DNA of 64,000 bases from Sthenelais limicola (Eukaryota; Annelida; Polychaeta; Phyllodocida; Sigalionidae). The stretch is taken from contig OW804094.1 in the NCBI GenBank assembly GCA_942159475.1, positions 53,564,966 through 53,628,965 on the forward strand, in the 5' to 3' direction. Positions 3,001 to 64,000 of this stretch are shown one piece after another (within the stretch, counting starts at the first letter, position 1; each line of letters opens with the position of its first letter). Both the position numbers and the translations under genes were made by a program. The notes beneath the pieces were generated by a model. The model ran no database searches, was not told the origin of the DNA, and saw nothing but the letters and a program-made list of their open reading frames with translations.

Positions 3001-5239
3001 TATAAAAGTTCAGACATAAAACACATTGAACAATTTCAGCGGCAGAAGATGTGTAATATGTTATTAGTCAAGGCCATAATTAGGACTAATTAGAGGCCTG
3101 TCAGAAATAGGTCTCGCTCGTGGATTGCTCAGCCTTGCTTGTTGTTAGCAAAACGCTCAAAGATTGGCTGGCAGTGAAATGACCATAAAGCAAAGGCTCA
3201 GGTGGAGGTAAGCGGTTCATCCCATGCTAGACTGGCTATATACGCTCATCTGAGTCCTGATTTATGATATTGAACTTGCCAGCTTAATATATAGGGCAGG
3301 ATCAAACACTCCAATGTTGTACATCCTTTCAAATAGCTCGCCTCAAGATCTATGACATTTAACCTTACATACGGCTTCTGATCCAATCCCTTTTAGTTAT
3401 ATTTAATCTTGCTATGTATTTTGATGGCACGGTGTGTTAACGGCTAAGTTAGCATTCCTTCTAGCCTTCATTGCGATGAAAATGGCTATTAAAACCCAAA
3501 ACGAGCTATTCACCACGACAAAGGCCAAATGATGTATTTTGATAGAATTGGTTATAATAGCGAACAAACAGATGCATGGTAATGTAATTCCAAGCTATCC
3601 ACCTATACATATAGTACAATCTATAAACTAGTGTGAAATTTAGGGTTAGATAATGTTGGTGTAGCTTACAGCTTACATTGGAAAAGAAACAAATTCTATA
3701 CTAGTATGGGTGGCACCCATACGGACATAACTAGTTAAGAAACCTGTGGTCGAGATTTTGCATGGAAACGTATCTCATAGTTGTCTTACATTCTACGAAA
3801 TACCTCATACATAGTACACAGATGAGTTATTGAATCTGCAAACGTAGGCTATAGGCTAGATGTAAATGGATTGGCATGAGAGTGCAGTAAAGATAAAATG
3901 GTAACTTTAGAGCAATTTGCATTTCACAATTTTAAGAGGTTCTGAGGCGTCGTGTTACAATCATATTATGCACATTTATGATATCAATCAAGGAAAGTGT
4001 GTCCTATAATATTATCAAGCGAGGTAAAGTGCTCCAATACCAGAGAGAGATGCTTAATGCAGGAAATGCTAAGACAAAATTAGATGAGTCATTTTGATCA
4101 CCAGTAATGGTACCTGCCATCACCCTTGGGCACTTGACTACAGCTCACTCACTCACACATGGGCTGAAGGCAAAGCAGAGCATTTTACGCACGCCTTGCC
4201 GCGCGACGCATCTCCCGCGCGGCAGATTGCTGTGGAGGCTGCCGCGGCGACTGCAGGTTGGCGAGCGTATCGAATTACCAGCGTTTCCAGGTAAAACAAG
4301 CCGCACGCTGAACAACGATCGGGTTACAACGACCGGGAGAAGATCCAAACCAGCGCTATCCAGCAGACACACCTACCTACATTCACACATGCTCATCTTT
4401 CTACACATTTTACATTTACACATAGGCCTATATTTATAAGTAAACCTTGATACAAACACTTTCACAGAAAAAATGTCTGATATCCATATCATAGTCGATT
4501 TGTCCCCAATCAGAGTGTAGATATGATGAATAAGTGCACGTAAAAGTTCTGCGCTCGATAGCTGCAATGTTATAAAGAACAGAGCTCTTTGCTGCCAGTC
4601 ATCTCCAATACATTGCCTAACAAAAAGCAACGTTTTTATTGCCTGGATATGACTGTATGCCTTTTAAAAAGTAAAATTACAAGAAGAAATACCCAGTTTG
4701 TTTAATGTTTCAGCACTACAATATGTCAAAGCCCAGTGCCTTCCATAATTCTTATATCCATAGCATCACACCCTAGGTTTATACCAAAACTGTCAACGTT
4801 TCATTTATTTCAGAATCCGTGCAAAACGTATATCAAAGTGTGAGTAATGTATTCCAGCTGCAGAATCATTCATTTCAGTAGAGCCCTCTTCATGTAATCT
4901 TACCTCAACCAGTAAAAGATTAAAGTATACACGGACAAAACTTCCAATTCATTACCAAAGCTCCTATTTCTGTGTTAGTTGAACAAATTAACTAAAGATG
5001 TATTATTATAAAACATATTACCCTCCATAGAATCAACAGTTTTGTTTGTTATTACACCCCTGTGCTGTTGCTTCCTATACCTTCAGCATTGTATGTCACA
5101 CTTGGTCAAAGTGGTGCATAACATGTGAGTTATGTCACCCTGGGGACATACAACAAGTAGGTCCGCCCAAAACGTAAATTACTTCTTTTATTTTTAATTA
5201 TTTATATTTTTTTATTTATTAATGGGGTGTAATAAATAT
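1..5239. other. Intergenic DNA, no gene recognised
   Basis: AT-rich single-copy-looking sequence. I read both strands and saw no frame with convincing protein composition, domain or paired splice sites. The longer open frames (for example 602-952, 766-1071 and 945-1283) overlap each other on both strands, are rich in rare residue runs and match no family I know. The one compositional exception, a CpG-rich patch at about 4,185-4,300, is listed separately. Confidence 0.6.
4185..4300 (+). promoter_or_regulatory. CpG-rich patch, possible promoter or first exon
   Basis: About 115 bases are strikingly richer in G, C and CpG than the surroundings and contain a near-palindrome made of GCCGCGCG and CGCGCGGC around 4,199-4,224. 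At 4,291 the patch ends in CCAG followed by GTAAAAC, a plausible splice donor on the plus strand. A CpG-rich first exon is one reading. A decayed GC-rich repeat is another. The open frames through it (4,094-4,439) give arginine- and alanine-rich translations with no recognisable domain, so I do not call a protein. Confidence 0.2.
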
Positions 5240-53345: not shown

Positions 53346-53923
53346 CGAGAGGCTTTCCCTTCGCTTGAAGGGACTCACTCAACTTTGGGCGTAGACTGAA
53401 TAGTTGTAGTTGTGCATTTGTTCTTCCGTGTTAGTGTCATAACGTTTGGACAGGAACTGTGAAGCTCACTCAAAATACTGCTGCATAACCTCCCTTTCCC
53501 CGGCCCCAAGAGTGAGATAGATCGAAACCCACGAGAAAAGTAATAATAATGAAAAAAGAAAACATTAAGCACACTAAAATGTATAATTATCGTTGGATTG
53601 TGTTCAAAGAATGTTTACGTTACTGGAATGCTCAGGTCTGTAAATCATTGAAATACAATTAAATATAATTATTTAGCCCAATTTCACAAGGTTTAGACAT
53701 GGTAATTACGTATGAATAAAAAGCGAGGGTGAGGAAGAACAAGAGGTGTTTAATCGCTAATGTACCTTCCCTCCTGACGGAGAGACAGGCGAAAATGGGT
53801 CGGTTTTTAATCGTGTTTAACCTTTGATTAATGAATTATACAGTTGTACCCTTCCGCTTATTGACAAATCTAATTCCCTAAGCTCGTCTGCATATCATGT
53901 GCATGGTTGGCGATTGACGATTA

Positions 53924-54082
53924 CCGAACCTTCTATTTTGACTATATTCGTACCTTCAAAGACCTGTCGCTGCGAACATAAAAAATAAGGAATTGAAGCG
54001 ATTGGCGATTACCGAACCTTCTATTTTGACTATATTCGTACCTTCAAAGACATGTCGCCGCGAACATAAAGAATAAGGAATT
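53924..54082 (+). repeat. Left inverted-repeat arm, tandemly doubled
   Basis: Two ~88-base units, each with CCGAACCTTCTATTTTGACT, a TTCAAAGA segment and GCGAACATAAA. The right end of the element carries one copy in the opposite orientation. Confidence 0.8.
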
Positions 54083-54355
54083 GAGGAATAAGTTCTCATC
54101 GTGGGGGAAGAGAATAGTCAATTAAAATCGTTGAAGAACGAGATGCAGTATGAGTTAATGAGAGACTCCAACTTATTTTCCTTAATGTTGACCTTCATTG
54201 TACGTTTAAAGACAAGGGGAATCGTAGGCCCCATGAATGGTTGGGGATATGATGTTGGAAATTGGCAATCGTGCTATGATGTAATAAGGAGATAAAACCA
54301 GCATTTAGTGTACACAATTTATTTCCAGTAATCCTTCTATGGGTATAATACAAGA

Positions 54356-54929
54356 TTAGTTTCCAGTTGGAGGTGGAGAACTTTCAGCTGCCGCCGCAGG
54401 GTTGGCTCGAATCTCAGCGTGTGTATCCTCACAGATTACATCCTGAAAACTTAGGTATGTTCCAATAGCGCTGTGGACATTTTCCCAGCGGTCATATGGT
54501 ACACGCAGGAGTATTGGCGTCAACTGCTTCTTCCTTTCCACCACGCTGACAATTCCCTATAATGAATAGAAAACCCAATAGTATAACGAGAATTGGTTAC
54601 ATGTATAGTGGAATATTAGATTAAATGTTATAACCGTCAAAATGCTATAAAAATAATACATTAAGAATACACTATTATTCATGCACCTGGAGAATGGAGT
54701 AATCATATTGAATTAAGCGTTTATAGGTATAATAGTTGTGGGAATAACCTACCTTCAGGAAGACCCTTTGCTGCTGCGTAATACCTCCTCTGAAGTAGAG
54801 GAGGTCTATGTATGTCCTTGGGATCCTCTTGGGTAAATAGGCTAATGACTGGTGGTACTCGTGAAGGTTAATCTGCGTCCCGTCGACCCCAGCTACGATC
54901 AACGTGGTGAAGCTGAGATCTTTGTCCAT
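54356..54929 (-). CDS. Small two-exon gene, CARD-like paralog 1
   Basis: Exon 1 (54,929-54,753) starts at an ATG in fair context (GACATGG) and ends AAG before GTAGGT. Exon 2 (54,556-54,356) follows CATTATAG and ends at TAA. Both junctions are phase 0 and give 125 residues. A poly(A) signal (AATAAA on the minus strand) lies at 54,323-54,318. The central part (LPKRIPRTYIDLLYFRGGIT and onward, into exon 2) aligns without gaps with residues about 32-98 of the intronless gene at 55,640-55,990: PK..PR, a spaced L, G.I, GI, R.K, and Y.S near the end, about 18 of 67 identical by hand count. The helix spacing resembles a CARD. The C-terminal tail is Ala/Pro-rich. Function unknown; an adaptor or death-fold decoy is only a guess. 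Confidence 0.55.
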
Positions 54930-54942
54930 GTCTTTCTTTTGC

Positions 54943-55340
54943 TTTTGGTCACTTCCAAATGGGAAGAATTGGTCCTTGCCGTGATTATTCGAAGGGTCAT
55001 AACCGTATCACCATGAAGAGGTGGGGCTGTGGGAGGAAGGGGGGGGGGGGGGGGGGAGACGGTGGAAAGGTATAAGGAATACAATGTTGCTTGCTGTGCT
55101 TTGTTGGACGGCCATAATTGCTTTTGGTCAGTTCCAAACGGTTTTAGGAGGGAAAACGGTCCTTGCCGCGATAATTGGAAGGGCCATAGCCGCGATTATT
55201 GGAAGGGCCATAACCGTATCACCATGGAGAATGATAGCTGTGGGAGGAAGGGTGCAGGGGGAGATGGTGGGAAGGTATAAGGAATACAACGTTGCTCTCT
55301 GTGCTTTGTTGGACGGCCATAAATGTAACGGGTCAAAAGC
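54943..55340. repeat. Two ~200-base direct repeats in the divergent promoter region
   Basis: The block starting GGTCACTTCCAAATGG (about 54,943) recurs as GGTCAGTTCCAAACGG (about 55,128). Each contains GGTCCTTGCCG, a GGAAGGGCCATA-type segment, ATAACCGTATCACCATG, GTGGGAGGAAGG and GGTATAAGGAATACAA. In the second copy an inner ~30-base piece is itself doubled, and in the first a G run (55,039-55,056) has expanded. The block lies between the start of the minus-strand gene (54,929) and the plus-strand gene (55,640), so it may hold shared upstream sequences. The plus-strand open frames through it are low-complexity and I do not call them genes. Confidence 0.7.
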
Positions 55341-55639
55341 TGAAATTGGTGGAGTGGGAGGGTGGGGGTGGGGTGGGATGGGGGGTAGGGGGTGTAATTA
55401 CCACCAGTCGTCTACAGGAGGAGGGATTAAAGGGGACAGTGATTCATGACAAGGTTGGTATAACGTACACAGGAGGAGGGGAATAGGGGTTGAGGGGGTT
55501 GACGATTTATGACAGGGGTAGTCAGGTAACATGGCGGGATAACAGCCAATGGGGCTTATTCCTGGAAGATGATGAACCCACACCTTATTTACGATTTAAC
55601 CTTTGACCATATGACAGCCTAAATCCGAACAACTCAGAG

Positions 55640-55990
55640 ATGTTACCGCAAGCTTTCTACGATATGACCGATTCAACCTTCATCCCCCAGTCCATGAGGG
55701 CGGCATACGCGATAGAATTGGCAGTTGATGTTTTCCCAAAGGAAGTGCCCAGGTTATTCGTCAATGTTTTACACCAGATGGGCATTATTAATGTGGACTT
55801 GAGAGACTTGGTCAACGGTATAGAGGACCCGGCCCGCCGTTCCAAGAAAGTGCAAGACATCTTCTTGGACCTACGTCCAGAGGCGTATTTAGCTGTGATT
55901 GTCGCGATGATGGACTATTACTCCTCTAAACAATTGTACGTGGCAGCGTTGAACGCAGAACGTTTAAGGATGAGAACGGCTGATGATTAA
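55640..55990 (+). CDS. Intronless gene, CARD-like paralog 2, histone-type 3' end
   Basis: 116 codons from ATG at 55,640 (a second in-frame ATG at 55,664) to TAA at 55,988-55,990. The translation is rich in amphipathic helices: residues about 18-30 (MRAAYAIELAVDVFPKEVPR), then LFVNVLHQMGIINVDLRDLV, an acidic-basic turn, FLDLRPEAYLAVIVAMMDYY, and a final helix. Order and spacing recall a CARD of the APAF1 type. It aligns gap-free with the spliced gene at 54,356-54,929. No signal peptide or membrane segment. Twenty-one bases after the stop is a histone-type stem-loop, so the mRNA is probably intronless, non-polyadenylated and S-phase linked. The fold assignment is inferred from pattern only. Confidence 0.6.
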   Translation: MLPQAFYDMTDSTFIPQSMRAAYAIELAVDVFPKEVPRLFVNVLHQMGIINVDLRDLVNGIEDPARRSKKVQDIFLDLRPEAYLAVIVAMMDYYSSKQLYVAALNAERLRMRTADD

Positions 55991-56007
55991 TGCTCAAGAT
56001 AAACCTT

Positions 56008-56084
56008 AAAAGGTCCTTTTCAGGGCCGCCCAATCTTCTAAGAGAGTGTCATATTTTCCTAATAATCCTATACCCACTTCCCTC
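56008..56084 (+). repeat. 3'-flank arm, inverted copy at 56,745-56,825
   Basis: About 77 bases covering the stem-loop, the purine element and CCTATACCCACTTCCCTC are repeated in reverse complement at 56,745-56,825 with few differences. Both copies are the 3' flanks of convergent genes, so the flank was either duplicated with the genes or kept by conversion. Confidence 0.8.
56012..56032 (+). terminator. Histone-type mRNA 3' stem-loop
   Basis: AAAA precedes GGTCCT, loop TTTC, AGGGCC, then GCCCA. This has the architecture of the replication-dependent histone stem-loop (6-bp stem, 4-base UUUC loop, upstream A run, ACCCA-like downstream): five Watson-Crick pairs and one U-G pair. A purine-rich AAGAGAG about 10 bases further resembles the histone downstream element. 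It lies 21 bases after the stop of the 116-codon gene, the usual histone distance. No histone ORF is adjacent. Confidence 0.8.
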
Positions 56085-56401
56085 AAAGTTTCTCAAAAGC
56101 TCCAAGTACCATATGAACCGGTTTCACCAAGCTATCTTATAACTATTTCCATGTGATACCATAATTGTTTAAAACTGTAATGTTAAACCAATGAGGAGCT
56201 AGGGGTGGCAGTTGGGCTAAGGTGGATCCCCTACCCCCTCCCCCTCCCCTTTAACCTGTGCTGCTCACATGTGATTGACAGGTCTGTGATACAACAGCAA
56301 CAAATGAGCACACACCCTTCACCCTTCTCCAGGCTTATGCGTTAAACCAATACGGTAGAATGAATAAAGGCCTTCAGCGATCTTAAGGCATATACATAAT
56401 G

Positions 56402-56579
56402 CGTTTGGCAGGACTTTTCATGATACCATATAAAATCGATAACCTTTGAGGTTAGTAAAATGGGACAAAAGAAATTGGTTAACTGAAATTCGTTTGGCAG
56501 GACTTTTCATAATACCATATAAAATCGATATTCTTTGAGGTTAGCAAAATGGGACAAAAGGAATTGGTTAGCTGAAATT
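56402..56579. repeat. 89-base tandem duplication between convergent genes
   Basis: Two units starting CGTTTGGCAGGACTTTTCAT (56,402 and 56,491), about 95 percent alike by eye. Each contains ATAAAATCGATA and AAAATGGGACAAAAG. No ORF. They fill part of the spacer between the two histone-type 3' ends. Confidence 0.85.
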
Positions 56580-56796
56580 ATGTACAGTCAGGTGGAAAAG
56601 ACATGTTTAGACACCTACGTTTACAAGTTGGATCCTGACAGTTTAAAACATTAACCTTTAGCCCTAATGTTCCCTTTGTGGTTAAACATCTCTGGGTATA
56701 GGATGGGAGGAATGTGGCTGTCTGGACCTGGGCCTAACTGTGTAGAGGGATGTGGGTATAGGATTATTGGGAAAATATAACGCTCTCCTAAAAGAT

Positions 56797-56817
56797 TGGG
56801 CGGCCCTGAAAAGGACC
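56797..56817 (-). terminator. Histone-type mRNA 3' stem-loop (second, minus strand)
   Basis: On the minus strand GGTCCT (56,817-56,812), TTTC, AGGGCC (56,807-56,802), GCCCA. Identical to the loop at 56,012, with GGAGAG as the purine element. It lies 23 bases after the stop of the minus-strand gene. Confidence 0.8.
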
Positions 56818-56840
56818 TTTTATGGTTTTTGGCTGTTGAT

Positions 56841-57200
56841 TCATGGATTCCAGCGTCCTAGGTACACGTCGGCCCAATCTTGGTCCCTGATGGGATCAAA
56901 GACTATCCTAGAAGGGACGTTTAAGCCATCCTCCAAGATCGAAATCATTGTGCGCGCTCGACCATACGACTCGTAGGCGAATATGTGGTAGAAGTGCATC
57001 ATTCTTTCCAGCTGGAGGCGAAACACCGACATATAGTGGAGAGCCTGTGGTCCGCTCATCGCAGCCTGCTGCATTCGGCTGTTAATCATATCTAGTTGAA
57101 CAGACAAATGGTCAAACTGCTGATAAGCTTGAACGCATGACCGAGCCACGCGTTTAAGCTCCAACAACTGCTGCCCAACTGCAATATGGTGCCCGGTCAT
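56841..57200 (-). CDS. Helical protein gene with histone-type 3' end
   Basis: From ATG at 57,200-57,198 the minus strand encodes 119 residues to a stop at 56,841-56,843. The same frame is open further upstream to 57,269 without an ATG and still looks coding (LPLTDFLLDNHLDQ), after a TGA at 57,270-57,272. Either translation starts at 57,200 or the 5' part carries a frame break. The protein is mostly long helices: GQQLLELKRVARSCVQAYQQ, then LDMINSRMQQ, then FRLQLERMMHFYHIFAYESY, ending DQDWADVYLGRWNP. No known family is recognised. A TATA-like GGATATAAG with an inverted CCAAT box lies at about 57,340-57,352. It is convergent with the 116-codon gene and shares its 3' flank. Confidence 0.55.
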   Translation of the reverse strand: MTGHHIAVGQQLLELKRVARSCVQAYQQFDHLSVQLDMINSRMQQAAMSGPQALHYMSVFRLQLERMMHFYHIFAYESYGRARTMISILEDGLNVPSRIVFDPIRDQDWADVYLGRWNP

Positions 57201-57427
57201 CTTGAGAGGTTGATCCAAGTGGTTGTCCAAAAGAAAGTCAGTCAATGGTAATCTGCACCTCTCGTCCAATCATATGGCTTCATAAATGCTTTAGTCGAAC
57301 TGATATGCATATTTCCACCGTGGAGGGCGTTGTTAGTATGACTTATATCCAATCAGGTGGGATTAATCACCCTGCACCCTCATACATAGAACCATATAAC
57401 CAAACGCCCATAGGAAGTGGAGAGGGA

Positions 57428-57464
57428 GGGGGGGGGGGGGGGGAGCAGGAGGAGGAGGAGGAGG
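57428..57464. repeat. G run and AGG microsatellite
   Basis: A run of about 16 G followed by AGG units. A similar G run lies at 55,039-55,056, and an AGG/GGGA-rich tract at 57,940-57,985. Confidence 0.9.
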
Positions 57465-57469
57465 GACGG

Positions 57470-58735
57470 ATGGGGGAGAGGGTGTTGTTTAACACGGATG
57501 ATAGAGGGGTCTGTGGTATGGGTGTGGTGACATAAATAGATGTTAAGCTACAGGTAGATGCTTTGTAAGACTTTATTCCTTCTCAAGATCTAGGAATTCT
57601 TAATCCATTCTACCGCGGCGATATGAGTATGGAACAATCACATGGAGCTCTTATCCAACACATTTGAGTCTTATACCTACCAAGGTGTTACCAGGTGTAC
57701 CTTGGTTATATTACAAAGGTTAATGTAATTGAGTCTGTAGGGCCTAGAGCATATGGTCGGGAGTGGGGAAGGGTTATTAAATCATGCGGTGGCCAAAGTG
57801 AGGCACGTATAAATATCAGTGGCAATGTAATCAATCGGTTATTTGATAAGAGCCACAAGTAATCTTGAAAGGGACAGGTCAGTGTTGCTACTTCAAGGCC
57901 ACATCGTAATGACCGCTGTTTAAGCATTAATCGGTGGTGGTAGAGGGAGGGGGAGGGGGAAAGAGAGATGAAGGACGAGGAGGAGGTGGTGGTTCGATAA
58001 ACCTATCTTCAATAAAGGTCAAGATTAAGGATGAACATAAGCTCAATCATGCTGAGGTTCACCTGCTATTCACCTGCCCCCCTCGCTCATGCTGCTAAGG
58101 TGTCGGGGTGGGGGCAGGGGAAGGGTGAGTGGAAACTGGTGGTGAATGGAGGGAGGGGGTGGGGTGCATATACAGATCCAGACGCAAGCCAAGGAAGACA
58201 CAACCAAGGGAGACAACTACTGAGACACAAGCAAAAATTGAATTGGCTAACACATTTACCACAACTTCGCCACACGCATCAAGCGATATAAAAGCAAACA
58301 CATAGAAAAAATAAAAAAGGACACAACAAGGCACAAACATTTCACAAACCTTTCTATATTATTCAAAAACACGTAGTATTTACAACACGTAGTATTTACA
58401 ACACGTAGTATTTACAACACGTAAAAAGGACACAAAAAACCACACAGCACACACAGCCCATACACACACACACACACAACACACAGCACACACACACACA
58501 CACTATATACATTATATACAGTCCTTAACTAACTTATATCTAAGCAGTAAGCAGAGCAGGGGCGAAGAAAAGAAAAGAGCAAAAAAGAATAGAGAAAAAG
58601 AATAGAAAATCAGAAAAAAGATAAAGTGGATTCAAGAGGCGAAGCTTAAGCATTGCGTTGCAAGCAGCAAAAAGTCTATGTACAGCGCAGCACAAAGTCC
58701 CAGGTCGTGGTGGTAAACGCTCCCCTTCAGCTGGT
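57470..58735. other. Spacer with simple repeats, no gene recognised
   Basis: The open frame 58,031-58,291 and its antisense competitors lack domains. Contains about 3.5 copies of a 16-base unit (CACGTAGTATTTACAA, 58,370-58,425), a CA-rich tract (58,441-58,503) and an A-rich stretch (58,560-58,625). Confidence 0.5.
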
Positions 58736-58740
58736 CGCCA

Positions 58741-59047
58741 TGGTGGTGGCAGTGGTGGCCCTCTCAGCGCCTAGTGGTGGGTGAGGCGGTGGTCTGCGGT
58801 GGACCCTGGAGGGCTCCTGGGGCTCCTGGGGGGCTTTCCCTAGGGCTCCTGGGGGGCTTCCCCTGGAGCTCCATCACCCTGACACAGCACACTAGGTGGC
58901 CGTGGTGGCAGTGGTGGCCCTCTCAGCGCCTAGTGGTGGTGGAGGCGGTGGTCTGCGGTGGACCCTGGAGGGCTCCTGTGGGGCTTTCCCTGGGGCTCCT
59001 GGGGGGCTTCCCCTGGGGCTCCATCTCCCTGGCACAGCACACTAGGC
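58741..59047. repeat. 159-base GC-rich tandem duplication
   Basis: Two copies (about 58,741-58,899 and 58,900-59,047) each with GTGGCCCTCTCAGCGCCTAG, GGTCTGCGGTGGACCCTGGA, repeats of GGGGCTCCTGGGGGGCTT, and an ACAGCACACTAGG end. The plus frame 58,774-59,058 gives a Gly/Trp/Pro repeat peptide, more likely a by-product of the repeat than a gene. Confidence 0.85.
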
Positions 59048-59189
59048 AGCTACACTGAAAGTAAAAAACATTTTTCAAAGTCTACCCTCGCAAAATATTT
59101 TCAAATATTAGTCAAATATTAGTCATAATCATAATTCAGCTACACCGCATTCATAAATTCATAATGATATTCAAACACACAGGCTTCCA

Positions 59190-59272
59190 TATTCATAATA
59201 ATAATAATAATAATAATAATATTCATAATAAAAATATTCATAATAAAAATATTCATAATAATAATACTTAAT
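59190..59272. repeat. AAT microsatellite, interrupted
   Basis: ATA/AAT run followed by ATTCATAATAAAAAT units. Simple repeat. Confidence 0.9.
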
Positions 59273-59323
59273 AATTTAACTTACACTCAGTAGACAGTAT
59301 GGTATACTGTGGCCCTCCCCCTG

Positions 59324-60095
59324 TTATCCGGGTAGCCTTGATCCTGTCCCCCCTGGAAACACAGGGAGAAGGCAGGCTCCCCTGTCTCGGGGCAAAGAAT
59401 TAGGGAAAACCATCGCTGGCAGGGCGGGGTGATGGTATAGTATACCCTCGATGGTATACTCAGCCTCCGCGCGCAGGCGCCATCCGTCTAAAGTTTCATG
59501 ATCCACTAAAATATAAAATCAAAAACTTAACATCAAGCACACAGCACACACAAGCTCACAGCACATTATATACATACATTATATAAAAAGACCACCCTCC
59601 TTGCTCGGACGTGGTGGTGTGCTTACGTGCTCGGAGAATCAAATTCACTCGATTTCAACATTTCACATCGATTCTACAACCCTACACACCCGTTTCAATA
59701 TAAATATAAAATGAAAAACTTAACATCAAGCCCCATTGATACATACACACACACCCTACCCACGGGCACCACCCTCCTTGCTCGGCGGTGGTGTGCTTAC
59801 GTGCAGAATCAAATTCACTCGATTTCAACATTTCACATCGATTCTACAACCCTACACACCAGTAAAACAGTTCTTACAGGTTTCTTTACATGCTATACAT
59901 CACATACTAACGTAATAACCATAAATCAAGCAATATAAACCAATACTTACTGGCTAATTCAAGGTAATCCAAAGTTTTGTTCTTCTGTAGTTCCAACTGA
60001 ATCAAAGACTGTCCGCAAAATGGCCACTTCGTAAAAATTCGGCGCAGATCGGAAGAAAACATAACTTCCAATCTTCCATTCATTCGTTCTTTCAT
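59324..60095 (-). CDS. Two-exon gene of unknown function
   Basis: Exon 1 (60,095-59,951) begins ATGAAAGAACGAATG and ends GCCA before GTAAGTATT, a near-consensus donor. Exon 2 (59,505-59,324) follows TTTTATATTTTAG, a good acceptor, and ends at TAA. The junction is phase 1, the summed exon length (327) is a multiple of three, and the frame stays open, giving 108 residues. The N-terminal part is basic and hydrophobic (SSDLRRIFTKWPFCGQSLIQ); the second exon has LDGWRLRAEAEYTIEGILYH and a Gly/Pro-rich end. No known domain. A second frame through exon 1 (starting at the ATG of MNWNERT) is also open, so the choice rests on splice phase. The 445-base intron holds a tandem repeat. Confidence 0.45.
59591..59860. 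repeat. Duplicated ~95-base segment within an intron
   Basis: ACCACCCTCCTTGCTCGG through CATTTCACATCGATTCTACA to CCTACACACC occurs at 59,591-59,690 and 59,768-59,860. The downstream AAAACTTAACATCAAGC occurs at about 59,520 and about 59,715. Confidence 0.85.
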
Positions 60096-60425
60096 TCCAG
60101 TTCATTAACCTTGGCGGCCGGGCGCCTCTTCTAACCTCTGACACCGCGCTCGACACTCGATCCCACACCGCGCCCCGGCGACGCTCTGAAAACTGATAAG
60201 CAAGCGACACATGCAACTCGTATATGAATAAAGTTAAATGAAACACCTGCTGGAATCTACAGCAATGTCCCCATATTTCAAAAAGAAAAAAACAACTATA
60301 TTACTAACATGTAAAACATGTAGATCCCTCAAGATTCCTACATGATTCCTCATGTGATCCCTCAATATACAATTCCACCGCTCAGCTAGTAGTATATCAA
60401 AATTGGGGCACACGCACAAAATTTC

Positions 60426-60809
60426 GCGCTCTTTTACGCACGCTCATGCCCAAGCGCTCCTCCACCATTCCACCACTCTCCCCATTCCACAACTCCCCCC
60501 ATTCCACCACTCTCCCCATTCCACCATTCCACAACTCAACCATTATATTAATAAACTCCACACAACTCTCAAACTCTCCCCTATATTAATCAAACTCTCA
60601 AACTCCCCCTCACCACCATCCACAATTGCGCTCTTTTACGCACGCTCATGCCCAAGCGCTCCTCCACCATTCCACCACTCTCCCCATTCCACAACTCCCC
60701 CCATTCCACCATTCCACAACTCAACCATTATATTAATAAACTCCACACAACTCTCAAACTCTCCCCTATATTAATCAAACTCTCAAACTCCCCCTCACCA
60801 CCATCCACA
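60426..60809. repeat. ~200-base C-rich tandem duplication
   Basis: Copies start GCGCTCTTTTACGCACGCTC at 60,426 and 60,628 and end CTCACCACCATCCACA. The interior is ATTCCAC/CTCCCC-rich. The second copy lacks about 20 bases. The open frames through it (60,403-60,890) are low-complexity shadows. The conserved GCGCTCTTTTACGCACGCTC segment may be a promoter element upstream of the minus-strand gene at 59.3-60.1 kb. Confidence 0.8.
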
Positions 60810-61061
60810 GAGGGGGCGGTGGTAGTGCTACACCACCACCACCACCACCTCAGTGGGGCAGTGGTGCACACACCACCACCACCACTTTGAGAGAAACAAC
60901 CACTTCGAGATAAACCCTCAACATAACGAGCATGGGGGAGCTAGGGAGATTGGCAGCCATCTTACACTTCGACCACTTCGACCACACAGCGAGCAAAGGG
61001 GCTAGGGGAGGGGCTAGGGCTTGGCAGCCATCTTGGATTACTCAAAAAAGGTCAAATTTGC

Positions 61062-61219
61062 GGGTTTATTACTACTACTTTCAATATTAAAAACCATAGA
61101 ATCCTTTGCAGATGCAACATTTATTTTAACCCTTTTGGACGGGTTTATTACTATACTTTCAATATTAAAAACCATAGAATCCTTTGCAGATGCAACATTT
61201 ATTTTAACCCTTTTGGATG
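61062..61219. repeat. 79-base tandem duplication
   Basis: Units at 61,062-61,140 and 61,141-61,219, each GGGTTTATTACTA... to TTTTAACCCTTTTGGA. The minus strand carries AATAAA in each, so the pair may serve as duplicated poly(A) signals for the minus-strand gene ending at 61,283. Confidence 0.85.
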
Positions 61220-61282
61220 TAACACGCATGGGGATAATTTCAAAGGCACTTTGAGTGCATGCGAATAAACTCTGCACATGTT

Positions 61283-61633
61283 TCAGCATTGCATTAAAGG
61301 TAGAATGGGTGGAGAGACATGCCACACCATCGGAAATTGGGGTTCCAGCGTTGAGCATGAATGGGAATTAAAAATGCTATATTTCCTGCTCATGGTGTCA
61401 AAGTGCAACGCAATGCATCGACCTTGTGAAATAAAGGCAGGGGTTGGGGAAGCTTGTAAAGCGCTTACAAGTTGACCCATGAGAACATTTGTGTTATTCA
61501 TATATCCCCCGAGTGGGAGGATTTGCTTAACATCATACCTCCATTCGTCATACAAGAAATGTCTGGGTAAATCATCAACGTTAAGGTAATCGTATTCTGT
61601 TAGTGGGCGAAGTTTCGAATATACATTGTTTCC
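61283..61633 (-). CDS. OTU/USP-protease-like C-terminal segment
   Basis: An open minus-strand stretch of about 115 codons ends at TGA 61,283-61,285. It begins after a TAA and has no ATG near its start, but GCACGAG before GGAAAC offers an acceptor at 61,634. The translation runs LTEYDYLNVDDLPRHFLYDE, WRYDVKQILPLGGYMNNTNV, LMGQLVSALQ, then GRCIALHFDTMSRKYSIFNS followed by HSC. The L..AL...A....GxxIAL...YxIFxSHS pattern resembles the C-terminal half of cysteine-protease domains found in large transposons and as herpesvirus-tegument-type deubiquitinases, where the SH histidine is catalytic. The catalytic Cys would lie in a missing upstream part. AATAAA lies about 85 bases downstream. Family call tentative. 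Confidence 0.35.
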   Translation of the reverse strand, partial: GNNVYSKLRPLTEYDYLNVDDLPRHFLYDEWRYDVKQILPLGGYMNNTNVLMGQLVSALQASPTPAFISQGRCIALHFDTMSRKYSIFNSHSCSTLEPQFPMVWHVSPPILPLMQC

Positions 61634-62057
61634 CTCGTGCAATTAGATATTCAGCTTTGGGTTGCATTTGCGTCGAACCATCTAGTGACCAAGCCGTGAC
61701 CAAGAGGGCATAATAGATGGGGTGGGTGGGGTGGGGGTGGCCTATCAGGTTGAGTTGAGGGTGGGGGTCTACCCGTGCAATGATCTTCTGACCGTGCACG
61801 GTGGGGTGGGAAATGCTAGGAGGACCTTGAGGGTGGGCGATCTCATTTAAAGGTGCACAATCGCACCTTGTCGAGGTGAACATTTTACAATGCCCGGCCT
61901 TCTTCTCACAGCGCCGTCTTCTTTTGACGTTAACAGTGGGTGGGGAAGCATTACTGATATCCGGCCCATTCATATCAGCACCGTTATCTCCAGTACCTTT
62001 AACCTGACATTGGTCTTTGTCACCGCGCTTCCTTTTCGTGGCACCTTTATTGTTCAC
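61581..62057 (-). CDS. Basic, NLS-rich N-terminal segment, probably same gene
   Basis: An open minus-strand stretch of about 150 codons. The first half is coding-like, with two basic clusters (ATKRKRGDKD and VKRRRRCEKKAG) typical of nuclear localisation signals and a Cys/His spacing HCKMFTSTRCDC. The second half (61,670-61,840) reads through GT-rich DNA that is duplicated at 62,474-62,644, and looks like non-coding insert or intron. No in-frame ATG precedes the basic clusters; AATAAAG before GTGCCACG could be an acceptor near 62,036. With the OTU/USP-like segment overlapping in another frame at the right place, a spliced or frame-broken single gene is likely. Confidence 0.35.
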   Translation of the reverse strand: MNNKGATKRKRGDKDQCQVKGTGDNGADMNGPDISNASPPTVNVKRRRRCEKKAGHCKMFTSTRCDCAPLNEIAHPQGPPSISHPTVHGQKIIARVDPHPQLNLIGHPHPTHPIYYALLVTAWSLDGSTQMQPKAEYLIARGKQCIFETSPTNRIRLP

Positions 62058-62059
62058 AG

Positions 62060-62374
62060 TTACAGGCTGACGCCATGTACCTGGTTCATCTTGCTTTTCA
62101 TTAAATGCCCCAACAACTTGAATAAACCGTTGGACTCTGTGTCATACATGAACTGTCATAAAACTGTCACTGTCAATGTCATTATAAAGATTGAATAATA
62201 TGTAACATAATATTGTATCGATTGAAAAATGTTTACATGTCTTTGATTGAAGAAATAAAAAGAAGAAATGCTAAATGCTAAATATTGTTTATTGATTTAT
62301 TTCTCCATCACTTATCAAACATTCGCAATGATTATGATTTAAATGCCCCCACAATGAAAACGTATTCCTCAAAG
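62060..62374. other. Spacer, no feature recognised
   Basis: AT-rich spacer between the basic minus-strand gene and the duplicated block at 62,375. ATTGAATAATATGTAACATA and similar AT-rich segments only. Confidence 0.5.
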
Positions 62375-62644
62375 ATCCTTTGCAGATGCAACATTTATTT
62401 TAACCCTTTTGGATGTAACACGCATGGGGATAATTTCAAAGGCACTTTGAGTGCATGCGAATAAACTAGGATCGCGTCGAACCATCTAGTGACCAAGCCG
62501 TGACCAGGAGGGCATAATAGATGGGGTGGGTGGGGTGGGGGTGGCCTATCAGGTTGAGTTGAGGGTGGGGGTCTACCCGTGCAATGATCCTCTGACCGTG
62601 CACAGTGGGGTGGGAAATGCTAGGAAGACCTTGAGGGTGGGCGA
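62375..62644. repeat. Composite duplicate of two separate upstream segments
   Basis: 62,375-62,467 is a 93-base copy of 61,179-61,271, and 62,474-62,644 is a 171-base copy of 61,670-61,840 with few substitutions and no indel in either. The 398 bases separating the two segments in the source (61,272-61,669), which hold the OTU/USP-like coding segment, are missing and replaced by AGGATC. Confidence 0.9.
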
Positions 62645-62645
62645 A

Positions 62646-63030
62646 TCAGAAGAGTGTATCAACTGTAGAGGGTGGGAGGAGGGCATGGAGGGTGGGAGGG
62701 TGGGAGGAGGAAATACCACTTCCGTCCATGCCACGTCGGGCATGGACAGGCCAGGGCCAATCAGAAGAGGGAAACAACTGTAGAGGGTGGGAGGTGGGAG
62801 GGTGGGAGGAGGGAATACCACTTCCGTCCGTGCCTCGTCAGGCATGGACAGTCCAGGGCCGATCAGAAGAGGGAAACAACTGTAGAGGGTGGGAGGTGGG
62901 AGGGTGGGAGGAGGGAATACCACTTCCGTCCATGCCTCGTCAGGCATGGACAGTCCAGGGCCGATCAGAAGAGGGAAACAACTGTAGGGGGTGGGAGCCA
63001 CGCCCCTGTCCATGCATGTCGGGCATAGAC
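62646..63030. repeat. 102-base minisatellite with internal hairpins
   Basis: Units start TCAGAAGAG at 62,646, 62,761, 62,863 and 62,965 (spacing 115, 102, 102). Each holds a GGGTGGGAGG-rich tract, CCACTTCCGTCC and a hairpin such as TCCATGCC-TCGTCA-GGCATGGA. 102 is a multiple of three and no stops occur, so frames stay open on both strands (62,573-63,037 minus; 62,672-63,129 plus). I regard these as repeat artefacts. The last unit ends in the longer hairpin CCTGTCCATGC...GCATAGACAGG. Confidence 0.9.
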
Positions 63031-63401
63031 AGGCCAATCAAAATAAAGTGTCAGGAAAACCCAGTCACAGAGTTAACCAATCAGGGCCAAACATTCCCAG
63101 AAAAGGTGCGAACATTCACACCTCATTAAAACGGAGTCCTGTGGAGAACCTGTGGAGAACCTGCGCCACAGTCTTTAATACCATGCTGAGACAGTGTACC
63201 AGACTCGTTAAAACCTGTGGTGATAACGAGAGGCCCCTACAGCTTTCTCTCGATTTCACACACTTTTTCGCCGCAAAACGCAAATCTTTCCTCAGAAAAC
63301 TGGACAAAAAAGGTATCAAGAATCAAAAATTACCAAATCCCCCTCGTCAAAACACAGATAATACATTCCTCCCCCCAGCAATGAAAAAATCAGGAGCCTA
63401 G
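63012..63401 (+). CDS. Basic protein gene beside the right inverted repeat
   Basis: 129 codons from ATG at 63,012 to TAG at 63,399-63,401. After a low-complexity start the translation becomes coding-like: VENLWRTCATVFNTMLRQCT, then NERPLQLSLDFTHFFAAKRK, then SFLRKLDKKGIKNQ and a Pro/Lys tail. The C-terminal half is strongly basic (AAKRKSFLRKLDKKGIKNQK), as in small nucleic-acid-binding proteins. No family recognised. The true start may be a later ATG or an exon border, because the first ATG lies in the last minisatellite unit. The stop is 9 bases before the right inverted-repeat arm. A TGTGGAGAACC 11-mer is duplicated at 63,139-63,160. Confidence 0.4.
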   Translation: MHVGHRQANQNKVSGKPSHRVNQSGPNIPRKGANIHTSLKRSPVENLWRTCATVFNTMLRQCTRLVKTCGDNERPLQLSLDFTHFFAAKRKSFLRKLDKKGIKNQKLPNPPRQNTDNTFLPPAMKKSGA

Positions 63402-63409
63402 GCCTAACC

Positions 63410-63481
63410 AATTCCTTATTTTTTATGTTCGCGGCAACAGATCTTTGAAGCTGGAAAATTTACTCAAAATAGAAGGTTCGG
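63410..63481 (-). repeat. Right inverted-repeat arm (single copy)
   Basis: Reverse complement reads CCGAACCTTCTATTTTGAGT ... CAAAGATCTGTTGCCGCGAA, then CATAAAAAATAAGGAATT, matching both left arm units at 53,924-54,082. Confidence 0.8.
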
Positions 63482-63533
63482 TCCCTATAATCGTTTAATC
63501 CAGTAACTGTCTAACAGATTAAAAACCGACCCC

Positions 63534-64000
63534 AAAATAGATGTTTGAGCAATTTGAGGGTATGTGCAGAAACCTATCCATACTGTCTTTGCCCTCGTGT
63601 CACATAAGAGTGCAAGCTGACCAGAACCATGTGGGAAGCAAACCCGGACACCATTAGTCAGAGATAAGCCTGCCGATGCTAATATTTGTCAAACCAACTT
63701 CCTGAAGTAATATATAGCAGAATTGTAATAAGAATTCATGCAAACGGATATGGTTTAAAAATACAAAATTGATCAAGAGGATTGCAAAGTTATGGTGAGG
63801 CAAACTATGAATATCCTCTGCTTTTCTAAGACAGATCTTATATTGGCGAAATAGATGGCTTGATCAGGAAAAGCTGCGACCTATTTCAATTCAGAGAATC
63901 AAATGTTATCAAAAATCATGTAATATATATATATATATCAACTCACAGCAACTCTCCCTCTAAAGGTTCTGGGAATATAGAAAATAATGTTGTTTAGAGG
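63534..64000. other. Flanking DNA, no gene recognised
   Basis: AT-rich sequence with a TA run at 63,923-63,938. Presumed to be the host flank to the right of the element. Confidence 0.5.

Follow-up and report, generated by a model that had tools for sequence, protein, structure and literature searches.

Histone-type 3' ends on two non-histone frames of a Helentron-like element in Sthenelais limicola suggest borrowing of the host S-phase message-making route

As of 2007, histone genes were the only genes known to make mRNAs of the replication-dependent histone type (PMC1924863). The window analysed here, a stretch of 64 kb of Sthenelais limicola DNA, carries two stem-loops resembling the 3' ends of such mRNAs behind two convergent frames that do not look like histone genes. 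Are these histone-type 3' ends, and does a mobile element use them to enter the histone-processing route of its host? The features concerned are as follows (positions in the window).

55640 to 55990, plus strand: frame 1, intronless, 116 codons, tentatively CARD-like in fold (open reading frame list, predicted structure)
56001 to 56084, plus strand: arm 1 of an inverted repeat, with the entire 3' module inside (self-comparison)
56012 to 56027, plus strand: stem-loop 1, of frame 1; Rfam Histone3 score 22.8 bits; consensus matched with 0 mismatches
56028 to 56032, plus strand: GCCCA; presumed cleavage a few bases past the stem, by analogy with Caenorhabditis elegans
56040 to 56046, plus strand: purine element AAGAGAG, candidate U7 site by its likeness to host histone genes, 12 nt past stem 1
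56745 to 56828, minus strand: arm 2 of the inverted repeat, with the entire 3' module inside (self-comparison)
56783 to 56789, minus strand: purine element AGGAGAG of frame 2, from reading of the sequence
56802 to 56817, minus strand: stem-loop 2, of frame 2; Rfam Histone3 score 22.6 bits
56841 to 57200, minus strand: frame 2, intronless, 119 codons, predicted to form a long helical hairpin (pLDDT 84; open reading frame list, predicted structure)

Both stem-loops read GGUCCU-UUUC-AGGGCC, with UAAAA on the 5' side and GCCCA on the 3' side, and thus have the 6-bp stem, 4-nt loop and flanks of a histone 3' end. The description given in the first-pass annotation (an A run, a 6-bp stem with a UUUC loop, GCCCA and a purine element) is borne out by the sequence, by comparison with the consensus and by control searches. 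The 23-nt consensus is matched with 0 mismatches at these two sites only in the 64-kb window. In 100 dinucleotide shuffles there were 0.05 matches per window at up to three mismatches, and a similar pattern has 4 matches in 257 Gb of prokaryotic contigs, or about 1e-6 per 64 kb. Two stem-loop patterns scanned in the IMG/VR viral contigs gave 0 matches. The folding energy of the two stem-loops is ordinary (z = -0.9 and -1.2).

The stop codon of frame 1 ends at 55990 and that of frame 2 occupies 56841–56843, which places the stems 21 and 23 nt downstream, as previously annotated; the frame lengths, estimated there at about 117 codons, are 116 and 119. Each intronless frame is thus followed shortly after its stop by a stem-loop. 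In C. elegans, histone mRNAs end 3–6 nt past the hairpin (PMC1924863), the basis for the cleavage position presumed above. No poly(A) signal (AATAAA, ATTAAA, AGTAAA or TATAAA) occurs in the 840 nt past frame 2 on its strand; AATAAA is present 373 nt past frame 1. The two 84-bp arms of the inverted repeat are 92 per cent identical. The two stem-loops are therefore a single module duplicated in inverted orientation: both copies reported earlier are present, but they are not independent and count as one observation.

The genome (1.13 Gb) contains a 4.7-kb histone repeat, which allows the window module to be compared with the histone 3' ends of the host itself. In the four genes compared, the stop-to-stem distance is 26–36 nt. 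AAGAG lies 13 nt past the stem in H2A, H2B and H4, and H3 has AAGCAG; the AGGAGAG of the frame 2 module deviates from the host AAGAG. A purine-rich downstream element thus occurs at similar spacing in the window (12 nt), in the second gene family described below (11 nt past the stem) and in the host (13 nt). The element loops have the common sequence UUUC, and the host loops are CAUC (H3, H2B), CCUC (H2A) and GUUA (H4). Such loops are unusual, and the host stem-loops (loci L061, i.e. G000:C94:1700-6700, and L074) score under the Rfam cut-off. The host histone repeat also contains a 5S rRNA gene. In sequence and layout, the window 3' module matches the host histone 3' ends.

A covariance score far below the family threshold had been named in advance as grounds for dismissing the stem-loops. 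At 22.8 and 22.6 bits, both do fall short of the gathering score of RF00032, 34 bits. The stem-loops of one histone unit, scored in one search, reach 26.1 (H3), 28.9 (H2A), 25.0 (H2B) and 25.9 bits (H4). Because 34 bits is likewise out of reach for all four histone genes of the host that were scored, the cut-off does not separate the two classes in this genome, and the low scores do not refute the assignment. Among the processing factors, the RNA-binding domain of SLBP is represented in the genome by one PF15247 match (56.9 bits, model positions 31–70 of 70). An Rfam search for U7 snRNA in the host genome gave nothing over the cut-off; the best score, 24.4 bits, lay under it, as was also the case in the prokaryotic controls.

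The frames themselves are not histone genes. A Pfam search at E values up to 10 assigned no family to frame 1 or frame 2, and tblastn of five histone proteins against 42 loci, including both window frames, found no histone, in agreement with the earlier reading. What the frames share with histone genes is thus the type of 3' end only. No homologue of frame 1 or frame 2 at E values up to 1 in 5.8 billion proteins was found among the 8 and 5 candidates scored, respectively. The low-confidence structural model of frame 1 resembles solved CARDs, with no sequence match, and a CARD-like fold is proposed tentatively; the matches to the two viral CARD proteins listed from BFVD are no better than chance (E = 3.7 and 6.1). 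For frame 2, Foldseek retrieved generic helical hairpins (best E = 0.032).

Frame 1 was matched at 17 genomic loci, nine of them stop-free over all 116 codons. Its pN/pS ratio is 0.39 (pooled over all pairs, 14 rows); the 21 synonymous and 35 nonsynonymous variants give p = 0.0043 at kappa 1 and p = 0.073 at kappa 4, so that frame 1 is probably under protein constraint. The protein search with frame 2 gave 14 loci and a pN/pS ratio of 0.98 (pooled over all pairs, 11 rows), and frame 2 looks neutral between copies. In these comparisons, copies with frameshifts or deletions were counted in the window's frame, and locus L048 was left out owing to its poor alignment. That locus (4740–4960) holds a divergent relative of frame 1 (58 per cent over 43 residues) with an unchanged stem-loop and a different sequence past GCCCAAT.

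The exact stem-loop pattern was then searched in the whole genome. There are 24 matches at 15 loci, nine of which have a plus/minus pair, against 0 for the backward-read control. The other 14 loci (15 regions) are mostly dispersed copies of one element, often 92–97 per cent identical over long stretches; four of them (L047, L048, L051 and L053) are short or divergent. Comparison of the copies delimits the element as follows.

53740 to 63536, minus strand: copy of a Helentron-like rolling-circle element; 5' end near 63536 (mutated), 3' end near 53740; boundaries accurate to a few bases
53740 to 53815, minus strand: 3' end of the element, with a subterminal inverted repeat, a hairpin and the terminus CTCTTG, followed by T in 11/11 other 3' ends
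61286 to 61642, minus strand: degenerate stretch, likened by eye only to a tegument-type deubiquitinase (VTD); no Pfam match

On the window's minus strand, the orientation of the element, its 5' end reads ATTGGGTCGGTTTTTAATC. It is preceded by T in all five other copies found, of which L045 has two changes in ATTGGGTCGGTTTTTAATC. A T also stands directly past each of the 11 other 3' ends, collected by a motif that includes CTCTTG. The 5' end carries a 19-nt repeat that is found again, inverted, 54 nt from the 3' end, and the last 55 nt contain a palindrome with a 7-bp stem and a 4-nt loop (whole fold -15.8 kcal/mol). Helentrons are described as having subterminal inverted repeats, the 3' one 38–60 bp from the end and the 5' one 2–4 nt inside (PMC4067079). 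The window element shares its inverted repeats, its palindrome near the 3' end and its apparent insertion between two T residues with Helentrons and HINEs. It is multi-copy, and by the sequence of its ends and copies it is a mobile, Helentron-like element. Tegument-type deubiquitinase domains, for which a D-x-H motif is described, also occur in Helentrons (PMC9741609).

Three other interpretations of this region were abandoned. A 5-bp target duplication was given up in favour of insertion at T|T. An endogenous virus was rejected, given the rolling-circle ends and the IMG/VR scans, which brought up no relative. A spliced 'gene A' with a poly(A) signal (54359–54930) was discarded; its exon 1 has in-frame stops in 10/10 other copies compared.

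Conservation of the module among the element copies is modest. Divergence was measured on 14 further loci (15 regions) that had been picked by their exact stem-loop, and the searched 21 nt were therefore masked in the counts. In the remaining sequence, arm 1 has 4 variable columns of 63 (14 rows) and arm 2 has 3 of 63 (11 rows, one almost wholly deleted there); 10/72 and 3/55 equal-sized windows, respectively, are equally conserved. In 10 other copies, the stem-loop of frame 2 is deleted once and changed in the loop once. Sixteen frame 1 loci extend to the C-terminal or stem-loop side; the 21-nt stem-loop used as query is present at 15 of them, and the remaining one has changes in the stem and flank. 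The regions compared are 2–4 per cent apart, which indicates that the copies are young.

The strongest support for conserved modules on non-histone genes is a second gene family, found outside the window. It is represented by an intronless frame of 95 codons (L059, 7489–7776) with a Histone3 stem-loop 3' of the frame; a Pfam search with this frame reached no cut-off. Members of the family (L059 7447–7840, L062, L063 and L065–L073) have about 95 codons and appear coiled-coil-like by eye. The L059 frame, used as a protein query, matched at 13 places: five matches are near-identical, two stand at 69 per cent, five at 45–46 per cent, and one is partial. The stem-loop is at the same place in 12/12 members checked (nine read as DNA, three judged from where the Rfam match lies and from its equal score), the partial match C7:82337367 being left out. 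The sequence GGCCCTTTTCAGGGCC is exact in 7/9 members read as DNA; the pair at 69 per cent have one and two changes. The stem starts 22–27 nt past the stop in 7/9; in L065 and L069 the last codons are frameshifted and the stop is displaced. Since the stem-loop had led to the query itself, independence from it is limited to the seven divergent matches, which form about two groups of near-copies, so that the independent lineages are few. A relationship between frame 2 and this family was considered and is unsupported (892/1000 shuffles score equally high).

The comparison of L059 with the copy on C5 is the most telling. Coding identity is 0.576, with pS 0.763 (saturated) and pN 0.331 (unsaturated), and 39/39 nt are identical across the stem-loop, the cleavage site and the purine element. 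Separate neutral drift is very unlikely to have left such identity. The identity may also stem from gene conversion or from a single donor captured more than once; the histone genes in both clusters compared differ from the module. As far as sequence comparison can indicate, this conservation is good evidence that the module is used, and selection appears to maintain 3' ends of the histone type on non-histone genes dispersed in this genome. The proposal to search the genome for further stem-loops beside non-histone frames has thus yielded both the 24 exact copies at 15 loci and an additional family.

A genome-wide Rfam Histone3 search, in which the best 75 of 198,962 candidates were scored and which is not a census, gave at least 73 matches, at least 56 of them over the cut-off. 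Neither the histone genes of the host nor the stem-loops of the window are among the matches listed. Distances were checked for 64 of the 73 listed matches, leaving out nine tandem neighbours at 20.1 bits, and none lies closer than 216 kb to a histone match. Further dispersed families of near-identical sequences (L013–L042 and L058–L060) score about 39–41 bits and often have two stem-loops in tandem. The stretch past their stem-loops, CAAGAGCATTGTWTATTCC, shows likeness to the 3' flank of host H2A, and some of these stem-loops apparently form the ends of spliced genes whose tails are basic. At G000:C5:94411249-94459075 there are at least seven Histone3 matches in 48 kb, the nearest listed histone match being 216 kb off.

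The reading we favour, with a probability of roughly 0.6, is that a Helentron-like element carries two non-histone frames with complete histone-type modules, and that its transcripts would be processed by host SLBP and U7 and expressed in S phase. The module was most likely acquired from a histone-like 3' end. Host SLBP would bind the element transcripts, and the U7/CPSF73 machinery would cut them past the stem-loop. The products would be non-polyadenylated mRNAs, abundant in S phase, and the element would benefit by having its proteins made during host DNA replication; that of frame 1 is perhaps a CARD-only protein. The first-pass annotation had already proposed that an element uses the host histone-processing route. 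Its mobility (15 dispersed loci, Helentron-type ends), the host-like layout of the module and the second family speak for this claim; the lack of constraint on frame 2, and its stem-loop being altered in 2/10 copies, speak against it. More tentatively, several unrelated mobile gene families may have adopted the histone 3'-end pathway as a common strategy that dispenses with poly(A) and confines their proteins to the time of host replication; their SLBP-dependent non-histone mRNAs would then constitute a new class.

For the copies in the window, the chief competing explanation is that the Helentron captured a histone 3' end, or two small genes that had one, and that the module has been copied passively and has no present role. 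Helentrons do capture gene fragments, including those of histones H4 and H15 in Culex (PMC4067079), and a captured histone 3' end is for that reason a natural origin of the module. The pN/pS ratio of frame 2, the modest conservation of the arms, the two altered frame 2 stem-loops and the youth of the copies all fit passive copying. Frame 1, however, leans towards constraint, although its significance depends on kappa, its stem-loop is kept at 15/16 loci, and the module of the second family is unchanged despite saturated synonymous sites. On balance, we consider purely passive copying unlikely, if well worth keeping in mind. It is less probable still that the genes belong to host families in segmental duplicates, the host itself placing histone-type ends on some non-histone genes. 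The dispersal of the second family and of the other Histone3 matches, away from histone matches, would suit such an origin, but the window's family has ends of rolling-circle type, with T before the 5' end in 5/5 and after the 3' end in 11/11 other copies.

Two further explanations are much weaker. Elements of the Helitron type carry a hairpin close to their 3' end (PMC4067079), and the stem-loops might accordingly be structural elements of transposition whose likeness to histone ends is accidental. Yet at its own 3' end the element carries another, different hairpin; the stem-loops are internal, lie in sense with the frames and have histone flanks and a purine element, and the prokaryotic control predicts about 1e-6 matches per 64 kb. 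This explanation is accordingly very improbable. Chance origin of the window stem-loops, with which their ordinary folding energy would agree, is the least credible of all in view of the shuffles (0.05 per window), the 4 prokaryotic matches in 257 Gb and the 24 genomic copies against none in the backward control.

Returning to the favoured reading, the histone-type ends of these repeated mobile pieces suggest, from their sequences, that the host route for making S-phase messages has been borrowed. Mobile non-histone genes with the module would be natural non-histone substrates on which to test the requirements of SLBP and U7, and the element genes could show whether a mobile element ties its expression to S phase. 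A further lesson would be the manner in which a processing signal may reach new genes through rolling-circle elements, and genes ending in histone-type stem-loops might go undetected in surveys of poly(A)+ RNA.

The window modules resemble the 3' ends of metazoan replication-dependent histone mRNAs (RF00032; SLBP/U7 snRNP) in the 6-bp stem, the UUUC loop, the A-rich 5' flank and the CCCA-type 3' flank, as well as in the purine element at 11–13 nt, the intronless frame and the stem-loop 21–36 nt past the stop. Unlike those mRNAs, the window frames are non-histone and occur in dispersed copies. No mobile element organized in this way was known to the first annotator, and among the open-access literature matches listed we likewise found no mobile or viral gene, or non-histone mobile gene, with a histone-type 3' end. 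Non-histone mRNAs lacking poly(A) have been reported, the part of the report consulted mentioning no stem-loop (PMC3188798). A Histone3 element has been predicted by Rfam in a coronavirus, likewise outside histone genes; it scores 14.7 bits and, in this RNA virus, falls inside the nsp3 coding region and not at a gene 3' end (PMC7786107). The frame 1 model, at low confidence and with no sequence match, recalls viral CARD-only proteins in its resemblance to solved CARDs.

The closest relatives of the element itself are the Helentrons, with which it shares inverted repeats (at the 5' end itself and 54 nt short of the 3' end), the 3' hairpin, the T|T target with no target duplication seen, tandem repeats and gene capture. 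It departs from described Helentrons in that its 5' repeat starts at the very end and not 2–4 nt inside, and from autonomous ones in that no Rep/helicase was noticed in the window copy, as judged by reading alone. Helentron-Cq-32A of Culex, which captured H4 and H15 fragments, is likewise a Helentron with histone-derived sequence; the portion of the source describing its captured genes mentions no stem-loop (PMC4067079). Its fragments are histone coding sequences with stops, whereas the window element has the 3' module only, on unrelated frames. Two frames with histone-type 3' modules are what sets the window element apart from the Helentrons described.
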